NCBI RefSeq assembly: GCF_900220975.1
Contig: NZ_OBQD01000001.1
Span: 434,001 to 498,000 of the forward strand
From: Rhizobium subbaraonis
Lineage (GTDB): Bacteria; Pseudomonadota; Alphaproteobacteria; Rhizobiales; Rhizobiaceae
Direction: 5' to 3'
DNA length: 64,000 bases
In this document: positions 2,915 through 23,490 of the stretch, piece by piece
Layout of the letters: each line of letters opens with the position of its first letter
How positions within the stretch are numbered: position 1 is the first letter of the stretch
The notes under the pieces: model-generated
What the model saw: the letters and a program-made list of their open reading frames with translations, nothing else
Databases searched by the model: none
Told to the model about the DNA's origin: nothing
Translations under genes and position numbers: made by a program

Positions 2915-4012
2915 ATGAAGATCGCCTTCCATTCGCCGCTGAAGTCGCCCAACCATCCGGTCCCCTCAGGCGACCGCCTGATGGCGCGCCTTCTGATCGC
3001 GGCGCTTGGAAGGGCGGGGCATGTGGTCGACGTCGCCTCGGAACTACGTACGTTCCTCGCCGGTCCCGAGGACGACGGTCGCGCGGCGATCGACGCTGCG
3101 GCTGCGGCGGAAATAGAACGCATCGATCGCCTGTGGCGGACGGGCGGCGCCCCGGACGTCTGGTTCTGCTATCATCCCTACTACAAGGCGCCGGACCTGA
3201 TCGGCCCGGAACTCGCCCGCCGTTTTGCGATCGCCTATGTCACGGCAGAAGCGTCCTATTCGCAGCGCCGCAACCGCGGTCTCTGGACGGAGAACCAGCG
3301 GATGCTGGCGGAGACCGTCCGGCATGCGGCTGTCAATCTCTGCTTTACCAGGCGCGATCGCGACGGGCTGGAACAGAGCATTCCCGGCGGCCGCTTTCGG
3401 TTGCTTCGGCCATTCATCGATCCGTCCGCGTATCTGGCGGTCGAACCGGAGGCGCAGCCCGGCCGGATCGTGACCGTCGCCATGATGCGGCCCGGCGACA
3501 AGTTCGACAGCTACCGGATGCTGGCGGCGGCTCTCGCCCGCCTCCCGGAAAGCCTGCCGTGGACACTCTCGATCGTTGGCGACGGGGCGCTGCGGAGCGC
3601 GGTCGAGGCGCTGTTCTCGCCGCTGCCTCGGGAGCGCATCGTCTGGCACGGTCAATGCGGCCCGGCGGAGATCGCCGAAATCCTCTCCCGCGCGGCGGTC
3701 TATGCCTGGCCCGGCACCGGCGAGGCCTACGGGCTCGCCTATCTCGAGGCCCAGGCGGCGGGACTTCCCGTCGTCGCCCAACGGGTCGCCGGCGTTCCCG
3801 AGGTAGTTTGCGACGGAGTGACGGGAATGCTGACGCCCGCCGGCGATGTCGAAGCCTACGCCGCCGCGCTTGTGCACATTCTGACGGACGGAGACGAGCG
3901 GCGGCGCATGGCGCTTGCCGCGCGCCGCTTCGTGAGCGACGAATGCTCGATCGAGGGCGCTGCCCTGCGGCTGGACGAAATCCTGAACGAAGACGTGGGA
4001 GGGCGCGGATGA
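2915..4012 (+). CDS. glycosyltransferase, group 1 (GT4)
   Basis: 365 residues starting MKIAFHSPLKSPNHPVPSGD, a typical first beta-strand of a GT-B fold transferase. The C-terminal half has ERIVWHGQCGPAEIAEILSR and YAWPGTGEAYGLAYLEAQAA, the EX7E-type donor-binding motif of GT4. The start follows GGGCTAAGAGGC. The reading frame stays open for 1.2 kb upstream, but that part is the shadow of the lyase on the other strand. Its stop overlaps the next start (ATGA at 4009), so the two genes form an operon. Sugar and acceptor unknown. Confidence 0.85.
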   Translation: MKIAFHSPLKSPNHPVPSGDRLMARLLIAALGRAGHVVDVASELRTFLAGPEDDGRAAIDAAAAAEIERIDRLWRTGGAPDVWFCYHPYYKAPDLIGPELARRFAIAYVTAEASYSQRRNRGLWTENQRMLAETVRHAAVNLCFTRRDRDGLEQSIPGGRFRLLRPFIDPSAYLAVEPEAQPGRIVTVAMMRPGDKFDSYRMLAAALARLPESLPWTLSIVGDGALRSAVEALFSPLPRERIVWHGQCGPAEIAEILSRAAVYAWPGTGEAYGLAYLEAQAAGLPVVAQRVAGVPEVVCDGVTGMLTPAGDVEAYAAALVHILTDGDERRRMALAARRFVSDECSIEGAALRLDEILNEDVGGRG

Positions 4013-4764
4013 CCGGCGATGCCTGGCAGCCGCTGATGGGCGAGCTCGACCGCTGGCGGCAGGCCGGCCGCGCGGCGACCTTCTGGCTGCGCGACGACGA
4101 CGCCGTCGAGCCGACGCCGGCGCTGGAACGCCTGCTGGCGCTGACGGCGAACCATTCCGTGCCCTTGGCGCTCGCCGTCATCCCCGCCTTCACCGGCGAG
4201 GCGCTGGCGGAAAGGCTCTTGCCTGCGCGCCATGTCGAGGTGACGGTGCATGGCTGGTCGCACGAGAATTTCGCTCCCGCCGGCGAAAAGAAACAGGAGC
4301 TTGGAGCCCACCGACCCGCCGACCATGTGCTGGCCTCGCTGGAGCAGGGTTTCGTTCGCCTCCGCCAGCTTCATGGCCCGCGCCTGACACCGGTCCTGGT
4401 GCCGCCGTGGAACCGCATCGATCCGGCCCTGATCCCATCGCTCGGCGGGATCGGCTTGCAGGCCCTGTCCGTCTTCGGGCCGGAAAAGGACCGCGGACTG
4501 CCGGCGGTCAATACCCATGTCGACGTCATGGACTGGCACGGCACGCGCGGCGGCCGCGACACCGGCACGCTTGCGCTGGAAATGGCGGCAAGGCTGCGGC
4601 AGGTCGAGGCTGGCGAGGGCACGCTCGGCCTTCTGACCCATCATCTCGTTCACGACGAGGCGGTGTGGACGTTTCTGGAAGCGCTGTTCGTGCGGACCGC
4701 GCGACATCCGGCGTGCCGCTGGGCGGCGCTGTCGACCATCCTGGCTGAGCGGGGGATCGGCTGA
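4009..4764 (+). CDS. polysaccharide deacetylase family protein
   Basis: 251 residues, translationally coupled to the preceding glycosyltransferase (ATGA overlap). FWLRDDDAVEPTPALERLL near residue 25 carries the paired Asp of the NodB-like deacetylase fold, and VHGWSHENFAP carries the HxxxH metal-binding pair. VLVPPWNRIDPALIP matches the third conserved segment. No signal peptide, so activity on a cytoplasmic or lipid-linked intermediate is likely, for example N- or O-deacetylation of a sugar in the growing polysaccharide. Confidence 0.78.
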   Translation: MTGDAWQPLMGELDRWRQAGRAATFWLRDDDAVEPTPALERLLALTANHSVPLALAVIPAFTGEALAERLLPARHVEVTVHGWSHENFAPAGEKKQELGAHRPADHVLASLEQGFVRLRQLHGPRLTPVLVPPWNRIDPALIPSLGGIGLQALSVFGPEKDRGLPAVNTHVDVMDWHGTRGGRDTGTLALEMAARLRQVEAGEGTLGLLTHHLVHDEAVWTFLEALFVRTARHPACRWAALSTILAERGIG

Positions 4765-4810: not shown

Positions 4811-5728
4811 TTAGCTGTCCACCGCGACGAATTCGATCACCTGTCCGTCGCGGGCGGAGAAGGAATCGGCGAATTCTGCCGAGGCCTGCCGGTCGATCTC
4901 ATCCAGTTCCGCATCGGTGCGCCAGGGCGCGTGATGGATAAAGGCGATGTTTCTGGCGTTCGCCGCCCGGGCGAGCCGGATCGCCTGCTGCCAGGTCGAA
5001 TGGCCGTAGCCCTTGAAGATCTCCATCTCCTCGTCGACGTAGCAGCAGTCGTAGATGAAGAGGTCGACGCCCGCGATCAGCTTGAGCACTTCCGGGTCGA
5101 GCACGCCCGGCACATGCTCGGTGTCGGTGATCATGGCGATGGAGCGGCCGCGCCAGTCGACACGGTAGCCGATCGCGCCGCCCGGATGGTTCAGCATGCC
5201 GGTGCGGATACTCACGTCCCGGCGCGGTTCGAGTATGTCGCCCGCGCGAAAATCGCCGTAGTGGAGATGCGCCCGGCACATCCTGGGATCGACGGGGAAC
5301 CACGGCGGCCGCATGAACTCGCTCACCATCTCGCAGGTCGTCATCTGTCCGGCGAGGTGGCCGGACCAGATTTTTACGTCGCATTCGTGGTTGTAGAGCG
5401 GCTTGAAATAGGGGAGGCCGATGATGTGGTCGTAGTGGCAGTGGCTGAAGAAGAGGTCGACCCGCTTGACGCCCTCGGCCTTCATCGCAAGGCCCGCCGG
5501 CGTGATGCCGGAACCGGCGTCGAACACCAGGATCTCGTCGCCGCAGCGCATTTCGACGCAGATCGTGTTGCCACCGAAACGGGCGAACTGTTCGCCTGAA
5601 ACGGGAATGCTGCCGCGAGTCCCCCAGAATTTGACGGTCAGGATATCGTTCGCGCCGATGCTCTTCTTGAGCTGGCGCGGCGGCTCCGTTCTGCGGCGCG
5701 AATGCGGCGGCCTTCCGATCATGTTCAT
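4811..5728 (-). CDS. MBL-fold metallo-hydrolase
   Basis: 305 residues. VKFWGTRGSIPVSGEQFARF followed by GGNTICVE and FFSHCHYDHIIGLPYFKPLY gives the HxHxDH metal motif (H96, H98, D100, H101). Further ligands lie in MLNHPGGAIGY, MITDTEH and FIHHAPWRTD. WGTRGS-x-GNT is characteristic of the RNase Z-like/cyclic phosphodiesterase-like branch of MBL hydrolases. Combined with the cyclic-nucleotide-binding gene next upstream on the same strand, a phosphodiesterase-type role is possible but is inference. The N-terminal 30 residues are basic and poorly conserved; a later start is possible. Confidence 0.75.
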   Translation of the reverse strand: MNMIGRPPHSRRRTEPPRQLKKSIGANDILTVKFWGTRGSIPVSGEQFARFGGNTICVEMRCGDEILVFDAGSGITPAGLAMKAEGVKRVDLFFSHCHYDHIIGLPYFKPLYNHECDVKIWSGHLAGQMTTCEMVSEFMRPPWFPVDPRMCRAHLHYGDFRAGDILEPRRDVSIRTGMLNHPGGAIGYRVDWRGRSIAMITDTEHVPGVLDPEVLKLIAGVDLFIYDCCYVDEEMEIFKGYGHSTWQQAIRLARAANARNIAFIHHAPWRTDAELDEIDRQASAEFADSFSARDGQVIEFVAVDS

Positions 5729-6619: not shown

Positions 6620-9334
6620 TTATGACACCAATTCCTTGAATGTCGCATTGTCTGCGAGATCCGTAAGTTTGCCGTCCCCGACAAGCCTGCCCTTGTCGAA
6701 GATCAACACGCGGTCGAAAAGATCGGTCAGCGAGGTGTTCGACAGCACCCAGATCACCGCGGCATTTCCGTTCTCCCGGTCGCGTACGAGGGCCAGCACG
6801 TCGCGGCAGATCTGTTCCTGGCTTCGGGCATCGAGCGCCGGCAGCGGCCGGTTGAAGACGTAGTAGTCGGATCGGCGCAGCAGCGCGCGGGCCATGTTCA
6901 GCTTCTGGCGCTGCACCTGCGTCAGGCGGCGGCCGCCCGAGCCGACGTTGAATTCCAGCCCGATCGACAGCACCTCGTCATAGAGGCCGGGCTCGCTGAG
7001 GAGCGCAATGACCATCGCGCGGACGCGCTCCGGACCATCGGCATGGCGATGGCTGACGCGACCGAACAGGACGTTGTCCATGATGCTGGCCGACGCCATG
7101 TAGCTGTGCGGATCGTAGCGGTCGATCGCGCCCTTCAGGCCATCGGGCAGGTTTTCGTGGAACTGCAGTCGCACGTCCACGATCTTCGACATCAGTTCCT
7201 CGGTCAGGAGACCGAAGCGGTGCCTGGGTTCGATATAGGCGAAGCTCAGGCGAATGATCTTGTGCTTGTCGTCGTCGCTGGTCTCGGAGAAATCCTTGCC
7301 CTTCAGCTTCTGCAGCAACTGCTGGTACATCGGAATGTCGTCCGGCGTCATGAACGTCAGCTGCTGGAAGAAGGGATGGTCCGGCGGCAGCCCGGCGAAC
7401 AGCTCGACGGCGTTTTCAGCGATTTCGTAGCCCATCTGGTAGAGCATCCGGTCGAGACCGTTGCGCCCGACCACTTCGCGGAAATAGGCATTGCGGCCGA
7501 TAGCGCGGCCCACCAGCTCCTCCCCGATCGCCGTGCCGAACAGCAGGTTCTCGCCCACCGTCGCCTCGATGTTGTAGCGGTCGGGCTCGAAGGGAACGAC
7601 GAGGTTGCTGAGGTTCGCCTTGTCCAGCTCTTCGCGTAAGGTGTGGCGCATGCCGACGATATGCCGGGCCAGCGCCTCGTTCTGCGTCGGGTCGACGGTG
7701 GAGCGCAGCGCCAGTTCCATGATGTCCTTGGTCAGGTAGACGCAGTCGAGAACGGAGGTGACCGACCGGAACAGGTCCTCCGGGCCGGTGGCGCCGGCGC
7801 CGCGATAGTCAATCCAGTCGCTGTGCACGTCGTAGTCCGGATTGCCGGCCATCCGTGCCTCGTCCTTCTCCCAGGCGCGGAAGTTGAGATGTGCGTCGTC
7901 GTAGACGGCGTCGCGCAGGGGAGCGTGCTTCAGCCCGTAGAGCAGGTTGTCGCGCAGCGTGCCGTAGAAATAGTAGGCGTCCGAGGAGACGTAGGTGATG
8001 CGGCGCCCGCTGACGGACTCCGGCAGCTCGAAGAGATCCCGGTCGCCAACCGATATCCGCCCCGACTCCGGCCACACGGTGCGGCCGATGGCTTCCGCCA
8101 GCGCGTCGCCGCCCGCTGCCGCACCGCCGATGATTGCGACGAACTCGTTCGGCGCGAACTGGACGGACACATGTTCCAGCGTGCGCGCGCCGCTGTCGTC
8201 GGCCATTGTCAGGTTGACCGCCGCAAGCGTTCCCGCCAGTGCCGCGGCCTCCTCGACTGACATCTTCTGGATGGCCGGATCGACCATGTTGTCGACCTTG
8301 AACTGCTCGACAACCTGGTTGTACTTCACCTGCACGTCCTGCCGCGCCTGATCCCAGTCGATCAGCTCCTTCAGCGGGCCGGGCAGATCCTTGTAGGCGG
8401 CGATGACGGCGACGAGCTGGCCGATGTCCAGCCGGCCCTGCAGCGCCAGATAGCCGCCGATCAGGTAGAACAGGAAGGGCGTGACGGAGGCCAGGAAGTT
8501 GTTGATGAACTTGACCAGGAACTTCCACTGGTAGAGGTCGTAGCGGATCTTGAAGATCCGGCCGAGCCGCGAGGCCACATCGGCGCGCTCGAAATTGGTG
8601 GTGTCATAGGCGTGGATCGTGCCGATGCCCTCGACGATCTCGCTGACGCGTCCGGCGAGTTCGCGCGCGGTCAGCTGGCGCTCGCGGCCGAGCACGAGGA
8701 GGCGGCGGCGCATGCGCGGGATCAGCACTGCCTGCACGGCGACGATGACGCCGGCGATCATGCCGAGCCAGATATTCTGCACGAAGATGAAGAACAGGGC
8801 GGTCGCCGCCTGCCCGCCAAGCAGGGCGGGGGCAACGAAGGCATCGCCGGTGAAGCCGCCCATCGGCTCCACCTCGTCCTTGATCATGCTGGCGATCTCG
8901 GCCCCCTTCACCCGCTTGAACTGCGCGGGTGGGAAGCGCAGCACCCGATCCACGAGCTCGAAGCGGATGCGGCGCAGAAGCCGCTCGCCGAGGCGGCCCT
9001 TGTAGGTGTTGATGTAGAGCTTGAACATGCCGTTGACGACGACGAGCGCGAGGAAGACCATGCTGAGCGCGATCAGCATCTGCAGCCGGTTCAGCTCGAG
9101 GCCGGGAAAGAACACGACGTTGCCGACAAAGGGCAGGTTGTACTCGATGCGCATGAACATCTGGCGCGCCGCTTCACCCTCGAACCCCTGGCCCTGGATC
9201 GGGCCGTTGACGATCTGCTTGGGCAGGTCGAAGGAGAGGAAGTAGGGGATCATCGACAGTGCGACGATCAGAAGGATCCAAAGCTGCTGCCTGCGCGTGT
9301 GCGTCCAGATGTAATGGGTTAGGCCTTTTTCCAT
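6620..9334 (-). CDS. ABC-exporter-like membrane protein with degenerate NBD
   Basis: 904 residues. The first 330 form an exporter-type transmembrane domain with hydrophobic segments near residues 15-35, 85-105, 170-210 and 280-305. The nucleotide-binding part starts near residue 370 and has lost its catalytic motifs. The Walker A position reads IIGGAAAGGDAL (residues 401-412), with no Lys. The signature reads LTQVQ (804-808) instead of LSGGQ. Walker B reads YVFNRPLPALD (825-835), with N-R in place of D-E, and the switch His region reads VLSNTS. Walker A and signature are about 400 residues apart rather than about 110. The insert repeats Q-loop-like modules ending NLLYG, NLLFG and NVLFG. It is probably not a standard ATP-driven pump; a scaffold or regulated export accessory is possible. 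Confidence 0.75.
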   Translation of the reverse strand: MEKGLTHYIWTHTRRQQLWILLIVALSMIPYFLSFDLPKQIVNGPIQGQGFEGEAARQMFMRIEYNLPFVGNVVFFPGLELNRLQMLIALSMVFLALVVVNGMFKLYINTYKGRLGERLLRRIRFELVDRVLRFPPAQFKRVKGAEIASMIKDEVEPMGGFTGDAFVAPALLGGQAATALFFIFVQNIWLGMIAGVIVAVQAVLIPRMRRRLLVLGRERQLTARELAGRVSEIVEGIGTIHAYDTTNFERADVASRLGRIFKIRYDLYQWKFLVKFINNFLASVTPFLFYLIGGYLALQGRLDIGQLVAVIAAYKDLPGPLKELIDWDQARQDVQVKYNQVVEQFKVDNMVDPAIQKMSVEEAAALAGTLAAVNLTMADDSGARTLEHVSVQFAPNEFVAIIGGAAAGGDALAEAIGRTVWPESGRISVGDRDLFELPESVSGRRITYVSSDAYYFYGTLRDNLLYGLKHAPLRDAVYDDAHLNFRAWEKDEARMAGNPDYDVHSDWIDYRGAGATGPEDLFRSVTSVLDCVYLTKDIMELALRSTVDPTQNEALARHIVGMRHTLREELDKANLSNLVVPFEPDRYNIEATVGENLLFGTAIGEELVGRAIGRNAYFREVVGRNGLDRMLYQMGYEIAENAVELFAGLPPDHPFFQQLTFMTPDDIPMYQQLLQKLKGKDFSETSDDDKHKIIRLSFAYIEPRHRFGLLTEELMSKIVDVRLQFHENLPDGLKGAIDRYDPHSYMASASIMDNVLFGRVSHRHADGPERVRAMVIALLSEPGLYDEVLSIGLEFNVGSGGRRLTQVQRQKLNMARALLRRSDYYVFNRPLPALDARSQEQICRDVLALVRDRENGNAAVIWVLSNTSLTDLFDRVLIFDKGRLVGDGKLTDLADNATFKELVS

Positions 9335-9700: not shown

Positions 9701-10891
9701 TCAGCGCTTGCCGGTCTCGGCGGCAAGCGCGCCGGGCGGGGCACCGGCGGCGAGGCGGTGCAGGAGGGCGGCTGTGGCTTGCGCACCGTTGAGGTCCAGC
9801 GGCGGCACCGGGGAGGCCGGGCTGTCCAGGGCCTCGCCGATCGCCCGGGCGAGGGCGGAAGCCGACAGTTCGCTTTCGCGCACCGTCCTTGCAAGCCCGA
9901 GCCGCTCCAGCCGCATCGCGCGCGCGGTCTGCTCGGTCTCGCCGCCGGCGGTGAACGGCACGAATACCGCTCGGCATCCTGCCCGCAGGATATCGCAGAC
10001 CGTATTGTAGCCCGATTGCGAGACGGACAGCCGCGCGGCGGTGAGAAGGCTCGGGAAGTCGGTCCGGAAGCGCTCGACCGTGACATTGGCGCCCGCCCCC
10101 GCGACCGTCGCGTCGAAGGCCGGCTGCGGCAGGTTCGGCCCGGCGATGACCAGCCACCGCAGCGCCGGCTCGAGCATGCGTGCCGCTGCGATCGCCGCCT
10201 CGTTCAGCGCGGCCCCGACAGCGCCTCCGCCGGCCGAAACGATGATGTCGAAGCGTTCGGAGGCAGGCTCGGGCGGCGGGGCGGCGATCAGGCCGGTGTA
10301 GATCACCTTGCCGGCGATCCGGCCGGCAAGCGGAAAGCTGTCATCGATCCGGGCAAACCGGGGATCGCCATGGACGAGCACGGCGTCGAAGCGCGCGTTG
10401 ACCAGCGCGACGCTCTCCTCGTCGCGGCCAGGCTTGCTGCGCTCCTGCAGGATATCGCGTAGCGAGGAGAGGACGAGCGGCCTTTCGGGCATCGCCGCGA
10501 TCTCGTCCAGAAGCGGAATGAGCTCGAAGCGGACCTGCCGGCGGCCGAAGGGAAAGGCCTCGATGATGACGATATCGGGGCGGACCTGGCGGAATGTGTC
10601 AAGCAGCATCTCCCGGCGACTTGCCTTGAAGGCTTCGTCGACGGGATTGCCGGACAGGTCGCAAAGCCCGGAAAAACCGGCGTCGCCGGCGACTACCGGC
10701 GGCAGCTCGACATGGCGGATGCCGGCGCCCGGAAAGCCCTTCACCGGCGTCCCGCCCGTCACCATGGTCACGTCGAAGCCGTCGGCGGCCAGCGCGTGCG
10801 AGATGCGGCTGGCACGGGCCAGATGGCCGATGCCGAGCAGGTGCTGGACATAGAAGAATACGCGCAGACCGTATGGATTGGCTGCGCTCAT
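9701..10891 (-). CDS. glycosyltransferase, MurG/GT28-like
   Basis: 396 residues. FFYVQHLLGIGHLARASRIS is the glycine-rich G-x-GH-x-x-R N-terminal loop of MurG-like GT-B enzymes, and SQSGYNTVCDILRAGCRAVF with FTAGGETEQTARA forms the C-terminal donor-binding site. The start at 10891 overlaps the stop of the preceding gene (ATGA), making a coupled operon with 10891-12135 and 12142-13350. It resembles the 'predicted glycosyl transferase' group (COG4671 type), as does 12142. No membrane segment; presumed cytoplasmic face. The reading frame is open far upstream (to about 12439), but that is a shadow. Confidence 0.8.
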   Translation of the reverse strand: MSAANPYGLRVFFYVQHLLGIGHLARASRISHALAADGFDVTMVTGGTPVKGFPGAGIRHVELPPVVAGDAGFSGLCDLSGNPVDEAFKASRREMLLDTFRQVRPDIVIIEAFPFGRRQVRFELIPLLDEIAAMPERPLVLSSLRDILQERSKPGRDEESVALVNARFDAVLVHGDPRFARIDDSFPLAGRIAGKVIYTGLIAAPPPEPASERFDIIVSAGGGAVGAALNEAAIAAARMLEPALRWLVIAGPNLPQPAFDATVAGAGANVTVERFRTDFPSLLTAARLSVSQSGYNTVCDILRAGCRAVFVPFTAGGETEQTARAMRLERLGLARTVRESELSASALARAIGEALDSPASPVPPLDLNGAQATAALLHRLAAGAPPGALAAETGKR

Positions 10892-12135
10892 CACGCCGCC
10901 CGCCACTCGGTCTCGAACAGGTCCTTCAACTGTCGGATGCTGACGTGATGGTCGAATTCGGTCCTGACCCGCCGTTCCGCCGCGTCGCCAAGCCGCTTGC
11001 GCAGGCCCGGATCGCGGATCAGCGTCTCCAGTGCCTTGGCAAGAGCTTCCGGGTCCTCCGGCGGGACCACGCGGCCGTTCTCGCCGTCCTGCAACAGTTC
11101 GGGAATGCCGGAAATGTTCGTCGAGACGCAGACGAGCCGCTGGCTGGAGGCCTCGACCAGCACGTTGGGCAGGCCGTCGCGGTCTCCGTCCGCGGTGATG
11201 CGGCAGGCCAGCGCGAAGAGATCGGAACGGCGATAATGTTCGAGCACGTCCTTCTGGTCGAGCGCGCCGTGCCAGGTGATGCGATCGGCGATGCCGAGCT
11301 TCCCGGCCAGCGCCTTCAGTGCCGCGAGGTTGGCGCCACCGCCGATATGGACGAAGCGCCACGAAAGGTCCGCCGGCAGCAGCGTCAGCGCCTTCAGGAG
11401 TATGTCGTAGCCCTTCTTGTCGACGGCCCGGCCGACGCTGACGATCGTCACCGGATTGCCGGGATCCGAACCGTCGCGCAGCGAATGCGTGCCTGCAAAC
11501 GGTGCGAAACGGTCGAGGTCGAGGCCGTGATAGCTGAGGTGGACATGCTCCTTGCCGTTGGCGAGAATCCGAAGCCGGTCGAAGCCCGGCTGGTTGCAGG
11601 TCACCGTCCAGCGGGTCTCCGAGAGCTTGCCGGCAAGTTCCCAGTCCGGTGAGGTCCAGATGTCCTTGGCATGCGCCGAGCAGGTCCACGGCGTGCCGTT
11701 CATCATGCTCGTATAGCGGGCGACGGAGGCGGGCGTGTGGATGAAATGGGCATGCAGCCAGTTGGCTCCCTCCGGCCATTCGGCGCAAAGCACGGCAGCC
11801 TGCCCGAAACGGCGCACGCGGTTCGGCGTCGGATCCCGGCGCAGGTCCTTGAGGAAGGCGCGGACGGCGGCCCAGAAGCCCGGCAGCTTCCGGCTCCTGG
11901 CGATGCCGCGCAGCACGCGCAGCGGTTCCTGGTATAGGTATTCCGGCAGGTAGTGGACCGGCGCCTTGATCTCGTCGTGGATCGGGTGGCGCTTGGCGTC
12001 GGTCGGGTGGCGCATGGAGATCAGCGTCAGATCGAAGCCCGCCCGCTCCAGCCCGAGGAGTTCCTGGGCGATGAATGTCTCCGAAAGGCGTGGATACCCT
12101 TTCAGGATCACGACGATTTTCTTTTGCGATTTCAA
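10891..12135 (-). CDS. glycosyltransferase, group 1 (GT4)
   Basis: 414 residues. Opens VVILKGYPRLSETFIAQELL, typical of GT4 polysaccharide transferases, with HAHFIHTPASVARYTSMMNG and AHAKDIWTSPDW in the acceptor half. VSVGRAVDKKGYDILLKAL and DGLPNVLVEASSQRLVCVST make up the donor site (E-x7-E region). It sits between two MurG-like transferases with 6-bp spacing upstream and an ATGA overlap downstream, so the three likely assemble one glycan. Confidence 0.88.
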   Translation of the reverse strand: MKSQKKIVVILKGYPRLSETFIAQELLGLERAGFDLTLISMRHPTDAKRHPIHDEIKAPVHYLPEYLYQEPLRVLRGIARSRKLPGFWAAVRAFLKDLRRDPTPNRVRRFGQAAVLCAEWPEGANWLHAHFIHTPASVARYTSMMNGTPWTCSAHAKDIWTSPDWELAGKLSETRWTVTCNQPGFDRLRILANGKEHVHLSYHGLDLDRFAPFAGTHSLRDGSDPGNPVTIVSVGRAVDKKGYDILLKALTLLPADLSWRFVHIGGGANLAALKALAGKLGIADRITWHGALDQKDVLEHYRRSDLFALACRITADGDRDGLPNVLVEASSQRLVCVSTNISGIPELLQDGENGRVVPPEDPEALAKALETLIRDPGLRKRLGDAAERRVRTEFDHHVSIRQLKDLFETEWRAA

Positions 12136-12141
12136 GTTTTC

Positions 12142-13350
12142 TCAGCCCTTTACGACGGTGAGATGGGCGCGCGCGCGGTCTTCCAGCAGATCGCCGACGA
12201 TCTGGGAGATGTTGCGCAACCCTTCCAGTCGCAGCGCCTGCGAGGTCTGCGAGGGCGGCGGGCGGTGGACCAGTTCCTTCAGCGCCCGCGACAGCACTTG
12301 CGGATCGCAGGAATCGTCGGAGGACAGCATCTGCACCAGTCCGAGTTCGGCGGCGCGGCTTGCCCGGATCAGTTGTTCCTCGCGCGGATTGACCCGCGGC
12401 ACGATCAGGGCCGGCTTGTCGAACGAGAGGATCTCGCAATAGGTGTTGTATCCGCCCATCGCGACGACCGCCTTGGCGTCGGCGATCAGTTCCTCCATGC
12501 GGTTGTCGAACTCGATCACTTCCACGTACGGGATCTTCGCCCCCTTCTTCAGGAGCTTCTGGCGCTGCTCGCCCGGCATGTAGGGACCGAGCACGATCAG
12601 TGCCTTGTGCGTCAGTTCCGGATCTTCCTTGTAGGCGTGCAACACGTCGTGGATGAGCGACGCCCCGTCACCGCCGCCGCCGGTGGTCACGAGAATGTAG
12701 TCGCCCCTTGGCCGGTGCTCCGGTGCCGGCTCGTGCGAGACGCTGCGCTGGAGGAAGCCGACGAAATCCATGCGGCCGCGAACCTGCGGCGGCACGTCCA
12801 GTCCGACCAGCGGATCGTAGAAGTCCGGCGGCCCGTAGACCCAGATCCGGTCGTAGTACCGCCCGATCTTGCGCATGATGTCGTTGCGTTTCCACTCGGC
12901 GTCGAGCAGGTGCGGCGCATCCATGACGTCGCGCAGGCCGAGCACCAGTGTCGTGCCGCTGGCCTTCAGGTAGGCGAGGGTGTCCTCGACCTCGCCGCGC
13001 AGCCCCATCGGCTCCTTGTCGACGAGGAAGATGTCCGGCTGGAAGCTTTCGGCGGTGTGGCGGATGATCGCCTGCCGCATCTTCAGCGTTTCCTGCAGGT
13101 CGATGTGCTGCTCCATTGACGTGTATTCGCCGTTGCGCAGCTTGATGACGCTCGGGATCTTCACGAAATCGACGCGCGCGCGATAGTCGAACGCGCCGGC
13201 GATCGGGGATCCGGAGATGATGAGGATGTTGAGGCCGCGGAATTCTTCCACCAGCGAATGCGCGATCGCGCGACAACGACGCAGGTGGCCAAGACCGAAC
13301 GTGTCATGGCTGTACATCAGAATTCGGGCGTCTTCCAGACGTCGCGTCAT
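12142..13350 (-). CDS. glycosyltransferase, MurG/GT28-like
   Basis: 402 residues. ILMYSHDTFGLGHLRRCRAI carries the N-terminal G-LGHLRR loop, and TTGGGGDGASLIHDVL and VVAMGGYNTYCEILSF form the C-terminal nucleotide-sugar half. It is a distant paralogue of the protein at 9701. It is the first gene of the three-transferase operon; the 70 bp to the ABC permease gene upstream hold no obvious terminator, so co-transcription with the transporter genes is possible. Confidence 0.8.
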   Translation of the reverse strand: MTRRLEDARILMYSHDTFGLGHLRRCRAIAHSLVEEFRGLNILIISGSPIAGAFDYRARVDFVKIPSVIKLRNGEYTSMEQHIDLQETLKMRQAIIRHTAESFQPDIFLVDKEPMGLRGEVEDTLAYLKASGTTLVLGLRDVMDAPHLLDAEWKRNDIMRKIGRYYDRIWVYGPPDFYDPLVGLDVPPQVRGRMDFVGFLQRSVSHEPAPEHRPRGDYILVTTGGGGDGASLIHDVLHAYKEDPELTHKALIVLGPYMPGEQRQKLLKKGAKIPYVEVIEFDNRMEELIADAKAVVAMGGYNTYCEILSFDKPALIVPRVNPREEQLIRASRAAELGLVQMLSSDDSCDPQVLSRALKELVHRPPPSQTSQALRLEGLRNISQIVGDLLEDRARAHLTVVKG

Positions 13351-13420: not shown

Positions 13421-14596
13421 TTACTTGTAAGGGTCGGCGGCGTCGCGCAAGCCGTCTCCGAGGAAATTGAACGCCAGGATGACAAGTATGACGGGTATCA
13501 TCGGGTACAAGAGCCAAGGATAAAAAGCGATCACGCTCACGCTGCGCGCTTCCGTCAGAAGGATGCCCCAGCTCGTGATCGGCGGCCGCAGGCCGAGGCC
13601 CAGGAAGCTGAGCGCAGTCTCGCCGAGAATCATGCCGGGTATTGTGATCGTGGCAGATGCGATCAGGTGCGACATGAAGCCGGGCACGAGATGGCGCCCG
13701 ATGATGCGGCTGCTCTTGGCCCCCATCAGCTGCGCCGCCAGCACATAGTCTTCCTCGCGCAGCGCCAGAAGCTTCGAGCGGACGGCGCGTGCAAGCCCGG
13801 TCCAGTCGAGCAGGCCGAGAATGACTGTGATGCCGAGATAGACAAGAATGGGACTCCAGCTCACGGGCATGATCGCCGCAAGCGCCATCCACAGCGGGAT
13901 GCTGGGAATTGACTGCAGGACCTCGATGATGCGCTGCACCACGAGGTCGATGACGCCGCCGTGATAACCGGCAATGCCCCCGATGACAATGCCGAGCGTG
14001 AAACTCACCGCGATGCCGATCAGGCCGATCGTCAGCGAGATCCGGGCGCCGTAGATGATGCGCGAGAGCACGTCGCGGCCGAGGCGGTCGGTGCCGAGCG
14101 CGAAGAACTCGCCGTCCTTGGCCGGGCAGACGAGATGGGTGCTGGCCTCCCATATTCCCCAGAATTTGTAGGGGTCACCCGAGCAGAAGAACCGCAGCCG
14201 CTGCACGTTGGTCTTGTCGTCGGCATAGACGCGCCTGAGCGTGTCCATATCGAGCGTCATCGTGCGGCCGTAGACGAACGGACCGACGAGCTGTCCTTCG
14301 TGGAACAGGCGCACGCGCTGCGGCGGCGCATGGATGAAGTCCATGTTGCGGGTGTGCAGGTTGTAGGGTGCCAGGAACTCCGCGATGACGATCATCATGT
14401 AGAGCACCAGCAGGAAAATGCCCGAGGCGAGCGCGACCCTGTGCTTCTTGAACTTCCACCACATCAGCCGCAGCTGCGAGGCCTGGAAGATCTTGGCCTG
14501 TCCCGCCGTCATCGCTTCGACGGAATGCGGGTCGAAGGGGGCGGTGGAGACGTAGTGGTTGAGCGGCGCGCCTGAGGGGGGAAGCGATACGGTCAT
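13421..14596 (-). CDS. oligopeptide-type ABC transporter permease (DppC/OppC-like)
   Basis: 391 residues. An OppC-like N-terminal region is followed by TM1 (ASGIFLLVLYMMIVIAEFLA), a long periplasmic segment (about residues 85-165), then GTDRLGRDVLSRIIYGARIS, the hallmark of this permease family. The EAA loop region reads ALREEDYVLAAQLMGAKSSR. About six membrane segments in all. It overlaps the DppB-like gene by four bases. Rhizobial importers of this class carry peptides but also oligosaccharides and opines; its location suggests a sugar oligomer, which is inference. Confidence 0.9.
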   Translation of the reverse strand: MTVSLPPSGAPLNHYVSTAPFDPHSVEAMTAGQAKIFQASQLRLMWWKFKKHRVALASGIFLLVLYMMIVIAEFLAPYNLHTRNMDFIHAPPQRVRLFHEGQLVGPFVYGRTMTLDMDTLRRVYADDKTNVQRLRFFCSGDPYKFWGIWEASTHLVCPAKDGEFFALGTDRLGRDVLSRIIYGARISLTIGLIGIAVSFTLGIVIGGIAGYHGGVIDLVVQRIIEVLQSIPSIPLWMALAAIMPVSWSPILVYLGITVILGLLDWTGLARAVRSKLLALREEDYVLAAQLMGAKSSRIIGRHLVPGFMSHLIASATITIPGMILGETALSFLGLGLRPPITSWGILLTEARSVSVIAFYPWLLYPMIPVILVILAFNFLGDGLRDAADPYK

Positions 14597-15591
14597 TTCG
14601 TGCTCCCGCCCTGGAGTCTGATGCGCGGATCAAGCAGGGCGAGCGCGATATCGGAAACCAGCACGCCGATGACGGTTAGGAAGGCAAGGAACATCAGGAA
14701 CGAGCCCGCGAGATACATGTCCTGGCTCTGCAGGGCCTTGATCAGCATAGGCCCGGTCGTCTCCAGCGACAGAACGATCGCGGTGATTTCCGCGCCCGAG
14801 ATGATCTGCGGCAGGATCGAGCCGATGTCGGAGATGAAGAAGTTGAGCGACATGCGCAGCGGGTACTTCACCAGCGCCCGGAACGGGCTCATGCCCTTGG
14901 CGCGCGCGGTGACGACATACTGCTTCTGCAGTTCGTCGAGAAGGTTTGCGCGCAGGCGCCGCACCATTCCGGCCGTCCCCGCCGTGCCGATGATGATGAC
15001 GGGGATCCACAGGTGTTCCAGGATCGACTTGGCCTTGTCCCAGCTCATCGGCTCGTTCAGGTACTTCTGGTCCATCAGGTGGCCGATCGAGGTGCCGAAC
15101 CAGATGTTGGCGAAGTACATCAGGATCAGCGCGAGGATGAAGTTCGGGACAGCGAGCCCGAGCAGGCCGAGGAAGGTCAGGCCATAGTCGCCCCAGCTGT
15201 ACTGGTGGGTGGCCGAGTAGATGCCGATCGGGAAGGCGATGATCCAGGTGACGAGGATGGTGACGAAGGAGACGAGCACCGTCAGCCACATCCGGTCGCC
15301 CACCACTTCGGAAACGGGCAGCTGGTACTCGAAGGAATAGCCGAAGTCGCCCTGGAGCATGCCCCCGACCCACTGGATGTAGCGGATCGGCGCCGGCTGA
15401 TCGAAACCGTAGCGTTCGCGCAGCGCCTCGATCTCCTCCATGTCGGCAGCTTCGCCCATGGCGCGCAGTTCGGAGATGTAGCTCTCGAAATAGTCGCCGG
15501 GTGGCAGCTCGATAATGGTGAATACGAGCATCGAGATCAGGAGCAGCGTCGGCACCATGACGGCGATGCGCCAGAGGATATATCGCAGCAT
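14593..15591 (-). CDS. oligopeptide-type ABC transporter permease (DppB/OppB-like)
   Basis: 332 residues. Starts MLRYILWRIAVMVPTLLLIS, the canonical first helix of DppB permeases, and has the EAA loop ELQKQYVVTARAKGMSPFRA. The ATG at 15591 is preceded by an in-frame TTG (15594) immediately after the stop of the binding-protein gene; ATG is preferred. Part of the binding protein/permease/permease/ATPase operon, translationally coupled downstream. Confidence 0.92.
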   Translation of the reverse strand: MLRYILWRIAVMVPTLLLISMLVFTIIELPPGDYFESYISELRAMGEAADMEEIEALRERYGFDQPAPIRYIQWVGGMLQGDFGYSFEYQLPVSEVVGDRMWLTVLVSFVTILVTWIIAFPIGIYSATHQYSWGDYGLTFLGLLGLAVPNFILALILMYFANIWFGTSIGHLMDQKYLNEPMSWDKAKSILEHLWIPVIIIGTAGTAGMVRRLRANLLDELQKQYVVTARAKGMSPFRALVKYPLRMSLNFFISDIGSILPQIISGAEITAIVLSLETTGPMLIKALQSQDMYLAGSFLMFLAFLTVIGVLVSDIALALLDPRIRLQGGSTK

Positions 15592-15594
15592 CAA

Positions 15595-17501
15595 TCAGGC
15601 GCTCCCGTCGTACCAGAACGTATCGGGCAGATAGACACCCATGAAGGCTGTGGGATCGAATCCGTAAAGCCCCGTTTCCGGCACGTTCCTGATCTTCCGG
15701 TTGATCACGACCGGCTGCAGCGTGCCGTTGATGATGCCGATCGAGAACACCTGCTGGGTGTAGATCGTCAGCATCTCCGTCCATATCGTCTCGCGTTCGG
15801 CGGTCGAGCTTGAACGTTTCCACTGTCGCATCAGCTCAACCAGCCTTCTTGCCTCGGGCAGCTCCGGCGCCTCGCCCTTCTGCTCGGCGGAAAGGTAGTG
15901 CAGGCCCCAGACCGGCCATTGCAGCTGCTCGTCGCCCGTCGGTGCAAGGGCGGACGGGGACATGTCGGGGGTGGGAATACCGTTGTCGATACCCTGCTGT
16001 ACCGACAGCATGATCTCGCCGCCGAGCGCCCGGCTGCGGAATACGTCGCGCTGCGAGGTCCGGACGCTGAGCGCCAGCCCCACCTGCCGCCAGTGATCGG
16101 TGACGAGTTCGAGGACGTCGGTCTCCAGCGTGCTTTCGCCGGCGGATTCGATGATCATGCTGGCCTGCCGCCCGTCCGGCAGAAGGCGCACGCCGTCGCT
16201 GCGCCGTTCCGTCAGGCCGACCTCGTCGAGAAGCTTGTCGGCGAGGTCGGGGTCGAACTGCGCCCAGGCGTGCTGGTACTCGGGCTTGAAGAGCGGGCTC
16301 TGCGGCAGGATGGTATCGGCGCTCTCGCGGGCGAGGCCGAAGAAGCTCGCCTTGTTGATCTCCTCCCGATCGATCGCCACCGACAGGGCCCGGCGGAAGC
16401 GGACGTCGCGAAACAGGTCACGCCAGACCTTGTCGCCGCAGTTGAGATTGGGCAGGAGCGCGATGCGCGAGCCCTGGGTGCGCTCCCACAGGCTGACGCG
16501 GATCGGATAGCGGTCCTCGGCATCCTTGAGGAAGGTGTAGTCGGCAAAGTCCAGGCCGCCGGACTGCAGGTCGGTCTCGCCGGCGCCCGCCTTGGCCGGA
16601 ATGATGCCCGGCGCGGAGACGTTCAGGAAGATCCGGTCGATGTAGGGAAGCTGCTGTCCCGTCTCGTCGACGCGGTGGTAGAAAGGATTGCGCTCGAAGA
16701 TGAATTGCTCGGCCGGCGGCTTCGTCAGGTTGCGCCACGGGTCGAGCGTCGGCAGCTCGGGATTCTCCGGCCGGTAGGTGCGCGACATGTCGATGTGGAG
16801 GCTGGTCCAGTCGTCGGAGCCGGTTTCCTCGATCAGCTTTTTCAGCGCCTCGGGCTCGGCATACTTCGGATGGAATTGCTTCATGTAGTGCGCGGGCAGC
16901 GCCAGGGTCAGCGGTTGCGGCGAGGCCAGGCGAAGCAGGAAATCGGGGTTCGGAACATCCCAGGTATACCGCACCGTCAGCGGATCGATCAGTTCGAAAC
17001 GTGGCGGCTTTCCTTCTGACAGAAGGTCGAGCGGCAGCCCGCGCGGGCGCATCTCCTTGTTGTTGAGCACGTCCTCCCAGTAGTAGACGAAGTCGTCCAC
17101 GGTGAAGGGATGGCCGTCCGACCAGCGGTGCCCCTCGCGCAGGCGGAACGTATAGGCCCGGTTTTCCACCTGCTCGAAGCTCTCTAGGATGTCCGGCTGC
17201 AGCGCCAGGTGCTCGTCGAAACCGACGAGACGCGCATAGCCGTTGATGGTCATCAGGCGGATGTCTTTCTGGCTGCCAATGATCATCCGCGCTGAGCCGC
17301 CATATTGCCCGGGCTTGCGGTCCATCGCCGCGAGATTGACGACGCGCGGCACCTTCGGAAGGCGCTCCGCCATCGGCGGCAGGGTGCCGTCGGCAAGCTT
17401 CTCCTTCAGGAATTCCGGTTCCTGCAGGGCGAGCGCTGCCCGCGCCAGCGGCGGGGACAGGCAGGTTGCTGCAAGCAGGCCGAGTACGGTTCGACGCGTG
17501 A

Positions 17502-17505
<4 letters not shown>
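15595..17505 (-). CDS. ABC transporter substrate-binding protein, family 5
   Basis: 636 residues with a GTG start at 17505 overlapping the ATPase stop. The N-terminus MITRRTVLGLLAATCLSPPL contains a twin-arginine-like TRRTVLG motif followed by a hydrophobic stretch and ARA, consistent with Tat or Sec export. FTVDDFVYYWEDVLNN and RDVRFRRALSVAIDREEINK are standard SBP family 5 motifs. It is longer than classical DppA/OppA (about 530), like family 5 proteins that bind large ligands. Between glycosyltransferase and lyase genes, a role in recapturing polysaccharide fragments is a reasonable hypothesis. Confidence 0.9.
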
Positions 17506-19391
<1,886 letters not shown>

Positions 19392-20495: not shown

Positions 20496-21860
20496 TCAGT
20501 TCAGCCCGCGAGCGATCATCGGAATGGTCGTCCGCCGGTCCGAACCGGGAGTGGAACGCGCGTCGCGATAAAGCAGCATCACCTGCTCGGCCTCCGAGCG
20601 TCCGTCGCGGCCTTCGCCATCGAGCGCTTCGGCGCGGTCGAGCTTGAGGTTGGTCTGCCCCGGCAGCAGCACCGTCAGCTTCTGCCGGACCCCGCGCAGC
20701 TTTTCCTCGCCGAGCGTCGTCCATTCGCCGCCGCAATAGGTGGCGAACGTCTGGCTGGCAACGATCGGCTTCGAATACTTCTTCGTCAGCCCCTGCAGCC
20801 GCTGCACCTCGTTGACCGCCGAGCCGAAGGCGGAGAAGGTCAGCCGGTCCCTCAAGCCGACATTGCCGAACATGACATTGCCCACATGCAGGCCGATGCC
20901 GTAGCGGATGTCGGCGAGGCCATCCTTGCGGCGCTTGGCGTTGAGCTCGCCCATGCGCATCGTCGCGTGGCGGACGGCGGACATCGCCGCCTGGGCCGCC
21001 ACCTGCGAGGGCTCGCGGTGCCGGCCGCAGGGATAGACGGCAAGGAAGCCGTCGCCGATGAAGGACAGGATCTCTCCGCCGTTCCGGTTGAACGGCGTGG
21101 CGATCGCATCGAAGAACTGGTTAAGCGTATCGATATAGGCCTGGCGGCCCTCCTTTTCGGCCAGCACCGTCGACTGGCGCATGTCGGCCATGACGAGGGC
21201 GGCGCGGATGGTTTCGCCGTCGCCACGGCGGATCTGGCCCGAAAGCACCCGCCGGCCGGCATTGCCGCCGAGATAGGTCATCAGCATGTTGTCGGCGAGC
21301 TTGCCGAGCACGGCCATCTTGGCTGCGACCGCCAGGCTGTTCTGGATCTTCAGGAGCGCCTCGATGACGTTGTCGCTGAAGCCGCCCGGGGCATCGGTGG
21401 ACCACGACCCGACCATGCCCTGGCCGGGCGATTCACCGAAAGACTGGACGAAGGCGAGATAGTCGGTTGCGCCGGCCTCCTTGAGGTCGTCGAAGATCGG
21501 AAACTCGGAGGGCGCCTTGTGGTCGATGCGCCGGCGCAGGTGATCGAGGCTGTTGCTGAGCAGGTAGTAGTACGGGCTGAGCAGGAAGCGCGACGGTTCG
21601 CTGTCCTCGCCCGAGGCGCGGAAACCTTCGACGGTGACGCCCTGGCCGCGCATCCAGGTGAAGCCCAGCGCGTCATAGAGCGGATGCAGCATCGAAAAGC
21701 TGAGATGGACGCGCAGAAGCGGCAGGCCAGCCGAGGCCAGCCGTTCGCAGAAGCCGGAGACGATGTATTCCAGATTTTCGCCGCTCAGTGCCGCGGTCTT
21801 CAGCCAGGAGGAGACGCGATCAAGGAGGATGTTGGAGACGTCGGCATTACGCGTGTTCAT
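20496..21860 (-). CDS. class III adenylate/guanylate cyclase
   Basis: 454 residues from the ATG at 21860 (MNTRNADVSNILLD); the frame is open further upstream but crosses the divergent promoter. The N-terminal 200 residues are a soluble domain of unknown role (ENLEYIVSGFCERLASAGLP). The C-terminal catalytic domain has ALVMADMRQSTVLAEKEG (first metal Asp), SFIGDGFLAVYPCG (second) and AFGSAVNEVQRLQG. No membrane segment. Its stop is coupled to the lyase at 19541, an unusual cyclase-lyase pair. Confidence 0.85.
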   Translation of the reverse strand: MNTRNADVSNILLDRVSSWLKTAALSGENLEYIVSGFCERLASAGLPLLRVHLSFSMLHPLYDALGFTWMRGQGVTVEGFRASGEDSEPSRFLLSPYYYLLSNSLDHLRRRIDHKAPSEFPIFDDLKEAGATDYLAFVQSFGESPGQGMVGSWSTDAPGGFSDNVIEALLKIQNSLAVAAKMAVLGKLADNMLMTYLGGNAGRRVLSGQIRRGDGETIRAALVMADMRQSTVLAEKEGRQAYIDTLNQFFDAIATPFNRNGGEILSFIGDGFLAVYPCGRHREPSQVAAQAAMSAVRHATMRMGELNAKRRKDGLADIRYGIGLHVGNVMFGNVGLRDRLTFSAFGSAVNEVQRLQGLTKKYSKPIVASQTFATYCGGEWTTLGEEKLRGVRQKLTVLLPGQTNLKLDRAEALDGEGRDGRSEAEQVMLLYRDARSTPGSDRRTTIPMIARGLN

Positions 21861-22179
21861 CTTTTGTCCTTGTCGATGCCTGATGCGGCGCTGTCGCAGC
21901 GATGCCGAGGCGAAGTGTCGATATGAAGTCTTCCGGCTTGGGTCCGGGGCGTCTGGTGGCGGTCGATCTGCCACCGCCGACGCAGTGCGACAAGATATAA
22001 GGGAGGTACCATCCCGAAACCAGAAGCGGTGGGCAAGAAATCTTTCCAGCCGGTCGTTGCCGCGCCGGGACGCCGTCGCCGCTCGGCTTGACGCGGCGGC
22101 GATTTGCGCCCAATTGTCTGCCACCAGACCGAAAGGGCCCAACGCATTGACCTTGCTTCCTTCTTCCGCCGAAACCCTG
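21861..22179. promoter_or_regulatory. divergent intergenic region
   Basis: About 320 bp between the divergent cyclase and nucleotide-sugar dehydrogenase genes, so it should hold both promoters. It is locally less GC-rich around 21997 (CAAGATATAAGGGAGGTACC). No confident -35/-10 pair or operator was found. Confidence 0.4.
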
Positions 22180-23490
22180 ATGACGGCGATTGCCGGAAAA
22201 AGTGCGCGCGCCGGCATCATCGGGCTTGGCTATGTCGGGCTGCCGCTGGCGATCACGATCGCGCGAAGCGGTTTTTCCGTGACCGGCTTCGATATCGACC
22301 CTGAAAAGATCACGGCGCTCGACGCCGGCAGGTCCTATATCGAGGCGGTGCCGGCCGAGGCGCTGGCCGCCGAGACGCGGGCCGGCCGGTTCCGCTCGAC
22401 GACGGATTTCACGGCGCTTTCCGAGTGCGACGTGGTGGTGATCTGCGTGCCCACGCCGCTGACCAAACAGCGCGAACCGGACATGTCCTATGTCGTCAAG
22501 ACCGCCGAAGCCATCGCGCGGACGCTGCGGGCGGGGCAACTGGTCGTGCTGGAATCGACGACATGGCCGGGAACGACGGACGAGCTTGTACGGCCGATCC
22601 TCGAGCGTGGGGGGCTGCGGTCCGGCGTCGATTTCTTCCTCGGCTTTTCCCCGGAGCGTGAGGATCCCGGCAACCGTGACTTCGACACTGCGACCATTCC
22701 GAAGGTCGTGGCCGGCGACGGCGAGGCCGCGTCTGCGCTGATGCAGGCCTTCTACGGCGCGGTGGTCAAGGCGACCGTGCCGGTGTCGTCCAACGCGACC
22801 GCCGAGGCCGTCAAGCTGACCGAGAACGTCTTCCGCGCAGTCAACATCGCCCTCGTCAACGAGCTGAAGGTGCTGTACGAGGCGATGGGCATCGATATCT
22901 GGGAAGTGGTGGACGCGGCGAAGACCAAGCCCTTCGGCTACATGCCCTTCTATCCGGGACCCGGCCTTGGCGGGCACTGCATCCCGATCGATCCGTTCTA
23001 TCTGACTTGGAAGTCGCGCGAGTTCGAACTGCCCACGCGCTTCATCGAGCTTGCCGGCGAGATCAACTCGGCCATGCCCCGCCATGTCGTGTCTCAGCTT
23101 GCCGAAGCGCTCGACATCCGCCTCGGCAAGGCGCTCAGCCGTTCGCGCATCCTCCTGATCGGCCTTGCCTACAAGAAGAACGTGCCCGACATCCGCGAGA
23201 GCCCCTCGCTGAAGCTGATCGAACTGATCGAGGAGCGAAAGGGATCGGTCGACTACCACGATCCCTTCGTGGCCGAAGTGCCCGCGACGCGCGAATACAT
23301 GGCGCTGAAGGGACGGCGTTCGGTCGATCTCGATGAACAGGCGGTGCGCGGCTACGACGCGGTGCTGATCTCGACCGATCACGACATCGTCGACTATGGC
23401 GCACTTGCGCAATGGTCGCCGCTGATCGTAGACACCCGCAACGCCTTCGCCCGCCGCGGTATCGAAGGCGGCAACATCGTCAAGGCCTAG
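22180..23490 (+). CDS. nucleotide-sugar (UDP-glucose/UDP-HexNAc) dehydrogenase
   Basis: 436 residues. The Rossmann motif ARAGIIGLGYVGLPLAITIA is at the N-terminus; the active site PGPGLGGHCIPIDPFYLTWK contains the catalytic Cys; LIGLAYKKNVPDIRESPSLK is the C-terminal NAD(P)/UDP-binding segment. GGHCIPIDP places it nearer the UDP-N-acetylglucosamine/galactosamine 6-dehydrogenase (WbpA/TviB) branch than to RkpK at 29539, whose motif is GGSCFPKD. The start at 22180 (MTAIAGKSA) is preferred over a TTG at 22147. It probably supplies a uronic acid precursor for the polysaccharide encoded here. Confidence 0.9.
   Translation: MTAIAGKSARAGIIGLGYVGLPLAITIARSGFSVTGFDIDPEKITALDAGRSYIEAVPAEALAAETRAGRFRSTTDFTALSECDVVVICVPTPLTKQREPDMSYVVKTAEAIARTLRAGQLVVLESTTWPGTTDELVRPILERGGLRSGVDFFLGFSPEREDPGNRDFDTATIPKVVAGDGEAASALMQAFYGAVVKATVPVSSNATAEAVKLTENVFRAVNIALVNELKVLYEAMGIDIWEVVDAAKTKPFGYMPFYPGPGLGGHCIPIDPFYLTWKSREFELPTRFIELAGEINSAMPRHVVSQLAEALDIRLGKALSRSRILLIGLAYKKNVPDIRESPSLKLIELIEERKGSVDYHDPFVAEVPATREYMALKGRRSVDLDEQAVRGYDAVLISTDHDIVDYGALAQWSPLIVDTRNAFARRGIEGGNIVKA

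Follow-up and report, generated by a model that had tools for sequence, protein, structure and literature searches.

A predicted pseudo-ATPase of the ABC-exporter fold with tandem Q-loop/helical modules and a cyclic-nucleotide-binding partner in Rhizobium subbaraonis and other Alphaproteobacteria

Analysis of a 64,000-nucleotide stretch of Rhizobium subbaraonis DNA (the window) revealed that the protein encoded at positions 6620 to 9334, a relative of ATP-binding cassette (ABC) exporters, is a real, conserved, and unusual feature. ABC transporters are generally taught as ATP engines. This protein, hereafter the pseudo-exporter, appears from its sequence to be a pseudo-ATPase. We favor, at a probability of about 0.5, the reading that it is an ATP-independent membrane protein of the ABC fold, which would be gated by a partner predicted to bind cyclic nucleoside monophosphates (cNMPs) and would serve, presumably in transport, a surface-polysaccharide locus.

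The pseudo-exporter is encoded by one open reading frame (ORF), and a relative of the same genus carries it stop-free at 96% identity. Its transmembrane domain (TMD) matched Pfam ABC_membrane at 67.9 bits against a cut-off of 28, as found for type IV exporters. In the nucleotide-binding domain (NBD), the match to ABC_tran was marginal, with 28.6 bits against a cut-off of 25 and only residues 386–478 covered. The best relatives in a PDB sequence search included PCAT1, ComA, NdvA, and MsbA. The Walker A region reads GGAAAGGDAL from residue 403, so that residue 409, where the Lys would be, is Gly and residue 410 is Asp. The Q-loop Gln is replaced by Ser 451, and the Walker B region, YYVFNR, carries Asn 828 and Arg 829 instead of Asp-Glu. 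The Walker A Lys and Ser/Thr, the Walker B Asp-Glu, and the switch His are all missing from the window protein; the D-loop is retained (ALDAR, 833). An earlier reading of the letters by a model (the original prediction) had described an intact 904-residue frame, a normal-looking TMD, and an NBD in which every catalytic motif was replaced. Our results bear this out at Walker A, Q-loop, signature, Walker B, and switch, and its proposal of a pseudo-ATPase is supported by the sequence.

The original prediction also described about 290 extra residues between Walker A and the signature, with three NxLxG modules that looked like copies of the Q-loop/helical subdomain. From the Walker A Lys position to the signature Ser, we counted 396 residues in the pseudo-exporter, compared with 99 (five proteins) or 104 (one protein) in the six exporters of the same genome where both motifs fit the pattern. 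The excess is therefore about 290–297 residues. Across the 163 family members described below, the median spacing was 396 (range 338–468). Each NxLxG motif lay within two residues of its predicted position (Table 1). Profiles of the three modules, built from 152–161 family rows and cut as in Table 1, all matched one another, with E values of 9.2e-7 for modules 1 and 2, 9.3e-8 for 1 and 3, and 1.5e-13 for 2 and 3. Scores were 45 for modules 1 and 3 and 78–80 for 2 and 3, against maxima of 19–21 in 60 column shuffles. For modules 1 and 2 (score 43), the shuffle control was run with other cuts only, and this pair was weak in a 15-sequence run (23 columns, E 1.4e-4). With other cuts, residues 552–605 matched 711–763 at E 1.3e-13 and a score of 83, where the maximum of 50 shuffles was 18. 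Against canonical NBDs, the E values were 6.3e-20 for module 3, 3.6e-10 for module 1, and just 0.0035 for module 2; the scores of module 2 were 25.9 and 29.3, depending on direction, against a shuffle maximum of 22.5. The Asn of NxLxG was present in 163/163 members in modules 2 and 3 and in 154/163 in module 1. Chance repetition of motifs was ruled out as an explanation because the profile scores far exceed those of the column shuffles.

The structural model shows the same recurrence, with a strand, short helix, strand, helices, and a long helix following one another in residues 446–572, 579–727, and 737–819. Together with the profile matches, this repetition indicates two extra Q-loop/helical copies between the Q-loop position in module 1 and the signature helix in module 3. 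The three modules thus appear, as far as profiles can tell, to be homologous copies of one Q-loop/helical unit. The window insert gave no Pfam match, and 15 members gave four weak ones in one member each. A search of the insert profile against the PDB returned nothing up to E 10.

The AlphaFold2 model, made from the window sequence and 41 related loci, had a mean predicted local distance difference test score (pLDDT) of 78.9. Blocks from residue 361 onward were mostly at 78–93, and two TMD stretches (154–180 and 315–334) fell below 50. VIA-align placed the ComA NBD (3vx4_D) on model residues 363–904 with Z 28.8 and a root-mean-square deviation (rmsd) of 2.2 Å over 238/240 residues. Since the ComA NBD spans this whole range, the NBD core is whole in the model and the extra modules are insertions in it. 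A complete NBD fold is thus predicted for the pseudo-exporter, in line with the overlay on an exporter NBD that the original prediction had proposed. The insert was also modelled alone (pLDDT 80.9). In a structural comparison additional to Foldseek, this model reached a Z of at most 3.8, and 5 of the 50 rows were ABC NBDs (MlaF, OppD, LolD, and MacB twice). In these five, insert-model residues 109–111 to 251–254 aligned with a single 69–73 residue stretch (Z 2.7–3.4, rmsd 2.8–3.1, 58–61 residues), which is presumably the Q-loop-to-signature part of the chain. Such matches would fit the module reading, yet they lie far below any safe threshold.

Relatives were sought in a named collection, a phylum sample, and a class sample, all within this phylum. 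Whole-protein matches at E 1e-60 or better occurred in 21 of 41 genomes, and at least 496 candidate stretches of the named collection encode a relative; the 80 named loci used below are the best 80 of these. With the insert profile, 31 of 398 genomes of the phylum were found, all from the same class or closer, and 131 of 385 genomes within the class. The genome of origin is included in each of these genome counts. The family is class-wide and extends beyond the rhizobia. From 183 loci, 183 ORFs were taken and merged by shared middle stretches into 163 members, one of which is 436 residues long. In one relative genome (L018/L022), an Ala-rich extra stretch between TMD and NBD splits the match, and the 968-codon frame is intact.

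Catalytic residues were retained by few members: the Walker A Lys by 29 of 163, the Ser/Thr by 10, the Q-loop Gln by 11, the Walker B Asp by 16, the catalytic Glu by 27, and the switch His by 19. Counting the five core residues (all of these except the Q-loop Gln), 118 members kept none, nine kept one, 20 kept two, 12 kept three, four kept four, and none kept five. The 45 members with some core residues came from other orders of the class (38), the same order (5), or records without an order (2), and all 29 Lys-retaining members belong to other orders. No member contained LSGG or SGG[QEM], in comparison to LSGG[QEM] in 7/7 own-genome controls. Alignment-free patterns gave GxxxxGK[S/T] in 5/163 and hhhDE in 9/163, and the Walker A, signature, and Walker B patterns occurred jointly in 0/163 members versus 7/7 own-genome exporters. 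On a tree built quickly from the TMDs of 67 representatives, the Lys state required at least nine changes and the Glu state at least 10; the root of this tree is weak and its outgroup branches very long, and it was used just for the minimum of nine Lys-state changes. These observations suggest that the signature and the Mg ligands were lost early and the remaining residues repeatedly, if the direction is as we infer. Because partial retention lies mostly in other orders, the rhizobial protein would represent the end of a gradual loss.

In the rhizobial set (n = 78; the named loci plus the window's own), no protein kept any of the five core residues. The replacements were largely fixed: Asn828, Pro830, Trp862, and Gly/Ala409 in 78/78, Glu/Asp410 in 77/78, and Arg829 in 68/78. 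The degenerate positions are therefore conserved as such among rhizobial homologues, a point that the original prediction had proposed to check.

The gene 50 bp from the pseudo-exporter, which the original prediction had singled out as a stand-alone cNMP-binding protein, proved to be a standing partner. It lay downstream on the same strand at 35–172 bp in 80/80 named loci. Among the 163 members, a cNMP domain started within 600 bp downstream in 144 and was fused C-terminally in 12. Named examples of the fusion are from Ruegeria and from Azospirillum, where the insert motifs were seen by eye. We take the phosphate-binding cassette motif of PF00027 to be Gly-Glu...Arg, and it was retained, with Gly in 147/147, Glu in 139/147, and Arg in 146/147 of the distinct rows passing E 1e-10, the more distant rows being left uncounted. 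PF00027 and the retained cassette suggest that the partner is a cyclic-nucleotide receptor and probably binds such a ligand. The C-terminal helix-turn-helix of a CRP/FNR factor was not found, and Pfam up to E 0.1 gave only PF00027. The protein has 153 residues and no other Pfam domain, so the name 'Crp/Fnr regulator', which some records use, is misleading. Members L128, L129, L130, and L176 have no detected cNMP partner; L128, L129, and L176 cluster on the tree, and their signature region is more broken still, with residues inserted. Three paralogues in one distant genome (L166, L167, and L168) all have a fused cNMP domain. The glycosyltransferases of the locus were found near none of them, and a different role for these paralogues is likely.

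A polysaccharide context, likewise part of the original prediction, is indicated by Sinorhizobium meliloti, whose orthologue is 66% identical to the pseudo-exporter. In this species, smb21252–smb21271 form the phazolicin-protecting surface polysaccharide (PPP) locus (PMC10128002). According to the text available from that paper, mutants in smb21252 and smb21265 are glycosyltransferase mutants, and their minimal inhibitory concentration of phazolicin was 0.18 versus 1.47 µg/ml; the same text is silent on pseudo-exporter motifs or a cNMP partner. Nine genes of the locus are needed for PPP (PMC10128002), and 7/9 are induced under Myxococcus attack (PMC10315480). SM_b21272 is given as a LacI regulator in PMC11387232 (as excerpted). 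When the genes of strain RCAM1750 are counted backward from the LacI gene, the cNMP gene would be about SMb21270, the pseudo-exporter about SMb21269, and the MurG-like glycosyltransferase SMb21265. The counted tags agree with the excerpts of PMC10128002, where SMb21265 is a glycosyltransferase family protein and a GT4 corresponds to about SMb21252. By gene counting, the pseudo-exporter/cNMP pair would thus fall within the PPP locus of S. meliloti. In the Clr/cyclic AMP (cAMP) regulon paper, the Clr-controlled cluster is nodP2-smb21248, which adjoins the PPP locus and is not the PPP locus itself (PMC5498481, as excerpted). The available part of PMC5539429 names no locus tags. The gene pRL110056 was reported for root colonisation (PMC11103875); counting from repA, it would be a nucleotide-sugar dehydrogenase adjoining the cluster. 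Locus-tag literature searches in S. meliloti and Rhizobium leguminosarum returned locus-level or neighbour mentions only, and searches on degenerate exporters and on cNMP with exporters in rhizobia found no paper on the family by title or abstract.

Table 1. Features of the pseudo-exporter and its locus in the window
Feature	Position	Strand	Basis
Pseudo-ABC exporter, 904 aa	6620..9334	minus	Single intact 904-codon ORF, ABC_membrane and marginal ABC_tran matches, homologues
Exporter-type TMD, residues 1–345	8300..9334	minus	Pfam ABC_membrane 87–312, invariant columns, dN/dS
Degenerate Walker A, residues 403–410, Gly in place of Lys	8105..8128	minus	Motif alignment
Module 1, residues 436–572, true Q-loop position and predicted first helical copy, NLLYG from 463	7619..8029	minus	Profile matches
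Module 2, residues 573–735, predicted extra copy, NLLFG from 596	7130..7618	minus	Profile matches
Module 3, residues 736–835, continues into signature helix and Walker B strand, NVLFG from 754	6830..7129	minus	Profile matches
Degenerate signature LTQVQ, residues 804–808	6911..6925	minus	Motif alignment and pattern counts
Degenerate Walker B, residues 824–829, Asn-Arg in place of Asp-Glu	6848..6865	minus	
Degenerate switch region IWVLSN, residues 861–866, Ser 865 for His	6737..6754	minus	
Stand-alone cyclic-nucleotide-binding protein, 153 aa	6108..6569	minus	PF00027 73.2 bits, sole Pfam match
MBL-fold hydrolase	4811..5728	minus	PF12706; 35/80 named loci
MurG-like glycosyltransferase, start uncertain	9701..10891	minus	PF04101; 73/80 loci
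GT4 glycosyltransferase	10891..12135	minus	PF00534; 72/80 loci at ≥40% identity
Second MurG-like glycosyltransferase, probable smb21265 counterpart	12142..13350	minus	PF04101; 72/80 loci, gene counting
Opp-type ABC importer: two permeases, binding protein, fused ATPase	13421..19391	minus	64–71/80 loci
Adenylate/guanylate cyclase domain protein, upstream end of locus	20496..22220	minus	PF00211 36.6 bits
Second GT4 glycosyltransferase	about 2900-4012	plus	Pfam; 34/80 loci
Polysaccharide-deacetylase-like gene	3988-4764	plus	34/80 loci

Neighbours in the named loci were counted at ≥40% identity and ≥40% coverage, within 10 kb flanks that limit the counts of far genes. A looser first rule had admitted paralogous glycosyltransferases and other importers, and the counts fell from 77 to 72 for GT4, from 54 to 34 for the second GT4, and from 73 to 71 for OppDF. 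In the fused Opp ATPase, both Walker A, both signature, and both Walker B motifs are intact. A cyclase is also annotated at the matching place in the Rhizobium johnstonii and S. meliloti loci, and the edge cyclase is a possible source of the ligand of the cNMP protein. The deacetylase-like protein had no Pfam match, but the S. meliloti locus includes a gene annotated as a polysaccharide deacetylase. Beyond the named loci, we inspected 40 further loci across the class, 20 picked for divergence and 20 from better-scoring class members. By the same identity and coverage rule, 20 of the 40 contained both GT28a and GT4, in most cases immediately upstream and on the opposite strand; OppDF was present as well in 13 of the 20. 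The two MurG-like glycosyltransferases look like an old duplicate pair, since the S. meliloti counterpart of either one is also matched by the other, at about 23–29% identity. Polysaccharide-lyase genes of one family (PF14099) lie on both flanks, at 1769-2809 and 19541-20494 on the minus strand, and an S. meliloti lyase gene of this family sits between cyclase and importer. The UDP-sugar dehydrogenase ORF at 21763-23490 (plus) has its first domain beginning at residue 149, so it was called too long and probably begins near 22.2 kb.

On the reading we favor, the pseudo-exporter would be a homodimeric protein of the type IV ABC-exporter fold that has abandoned the use of ATP. Ahead of its signature helix would stand two extra tandem Q-loop/helical copies, as the profiles suggest, and the nucleotide site would have been dismantled stepwise across the family. 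The cyclic-nucleotide-binding subunit, mostly a separate gene product and sometimes a C-terminal fusion, would sit on the NBD, and cNMP would probably take over from ATP as the ligand setting the state of NBD and TMD. In rhizobia, the system would serve the counterpart of the S. meliloti PPP cluster, a surface-polysaccharide locus. Its likeliest role there would be that of a gate under cNMP control, or of an ATP-independent flippase or scaffold, for that glycan or its precursor, with the cyclase at the locus edge providing the ligand. A wider version of this idea is more tentative: cyclic nucleotide might act in ATP's stead throughout the family, the NBD dimer and two extra transmission subdomains forming a switch under a docked cAMP or cyclic GMP (cGMP) receptor, so that these proteins might be second-messenger-gated, ATP-independent surface-polysaccharide transporters or gates across Alphaproteobacteria.

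The best-surviving alternative, which we consider conceivable and rather doubtful, is an ATP-independent secondary transporter (for example proton-driven) of the polysaccharide or a lipid-linked precursor, in which the NBD would be a structural remnant and cNMP control secondary. SbmA/BacA provides the analogy, having an exporter-like fold that is thought to work without ATP and no NBD. BacA, which occurs in S. meliloti, is described as an SbmA-like peptide transporter (SLiPT). Of the 74 invariant alignment columns of the pseudo-exporter, 56 fall in its TMD. In comparisons with four congeners, the ratio of nonsynonymous to synonymous substitution rates (dN/dS) was 0.063–0.084 in the TMD and 0.041–0.256 in the NBD and insert parts; of the four regions, the TMD had the lowest ratio in three of the four comparisons. 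The scanned window neighbours included no recognisable Wzx-, Wzm-, or synthase-type exporter; however, exporters encoded elsewhere could serve. Purifying selection on the NBD and the extra modules, with fixed new residues, goes beyond the need of a remnant, and in the closest congener one NBD part (0.041) was more constrained than the TMD (0.063). Unlike the NBD-free SLiPTs, including SbmA/BacA, the pseudo-exporter is predicted from its model to keep an NBD that is larger than normal.

We judge it unlikely that the protein is for signalling or scaffolding only, reading cNMP and assembling or allosterically controlling the cluster glycosyltransferases at the membrane without transport. The constant pairing with a cNMP domain and the cytoplasmic-type glycosyltransferases alongside in rhizobia would suit such a role. 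In exporters, the Q-loop/helical subdomain contacts the membrane part, and its tripling may therefore offer docking surfaces. A scaffold would, however, have no obvious need of a whole, strongly constrained exporter-type TMD, and the two Ruegeria members have no annotated glycosyltransferase neighbours.

Non-canonical ATP binding, or a degenerate half that pairs with a canonical half-exporter encoded elsewhere, is more improbable still. Heterodimeric exporters such as TM287/288, TmrAB, MRP1, and CFTR resemble the pseudo-exporter in having a degenerate nucleotide site within the exporter fold, which is well known according to the available part of PMC7756269; they keep one canonical hydrolysing site (same source). 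At least seven canonical half-exporters are encoded in the R. subbaraonis genome, and some homologues of the pseudo-exporter retain Lys, Glu, and His. In contrast to the heterodimers, the pseudo-exporter has lost all motifs, and neither the window nor two annotated rhizobial loci held an exporter half next to it. The five core residues are gone in all 78 rhizobial members, and with no SGGQ-type signature in any member, the usual completion of a partner's site would not be possible. Finally, a decaying, functionless gene would explain the loss of the main catalytic motifs and can be set aside, since the sequence is stop-free in all 22 matched stretches, dN/dS is low in every region, and the family occurs across the class.

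Several observations weigh against the reading of a cNMP-gated, ATP-independent protein serving a polysaccharide locus. Because the insert was the criterion for choosing members, all 163 necessarily have it, and the insert modelled alone gave no Foldseek match at E 0.001 or better. Homologues with canonical residues, which would speak against the original prediction, do exist in part: 45/163 members retain one to four core residues, four of them retaining four, and their common ancestor may thus have bound ATP. The other part of the prediction stands, with no SGGQ-type signature and no complete set of five in any of the 163. In seven of the 163 members, no cNMP domain was found within 600 bp; one of these, L137, has a cNMP domain farther along (L195). 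At class level, 20 of the 40 further loci had no GT28a and GT4 pair at 40% identity (some are cut by contig ends), and the two Ruegeria members had no annotated glycosyltransferase within 14 kb, the second having two nucleotide-sugar genes about 12 kb away. The gene counting in S. meliloti fits smb21265 and smb21252 and is two too high for the sulfotransferase smb21249, aminotransferase smb21248, and deacetylase smb21247 named in the available part of PMC5498481; counted tags at the far end are therefore uncertain by two. The next S. meliloti cluster holds an O-antigen ligase and a lipopolysaccharide biosynthesis protein, which places another export route nearby.

Herein, the pseudo-exporter shares with type IV exporters (MsbA, PCAT1, ComA, NdvA, and TmrAB) the TMD and, as predicted, the full NBD fold. 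Unlike them, it has no usable ATP site by sequence, three Q-loop/helical copies, and a cNMP partner. If the favored reading is true, a ligand other than ATP can drive or gate the exporter chassis, and the PPP locus, which forms a barrier against an antimicrobial peptide, gains a candidate membrane component controlled by cAMP or cGMP. The role of a pseudo-ATPase ABC protein would thereby become open to direct experiment in an organism with easy genetics.

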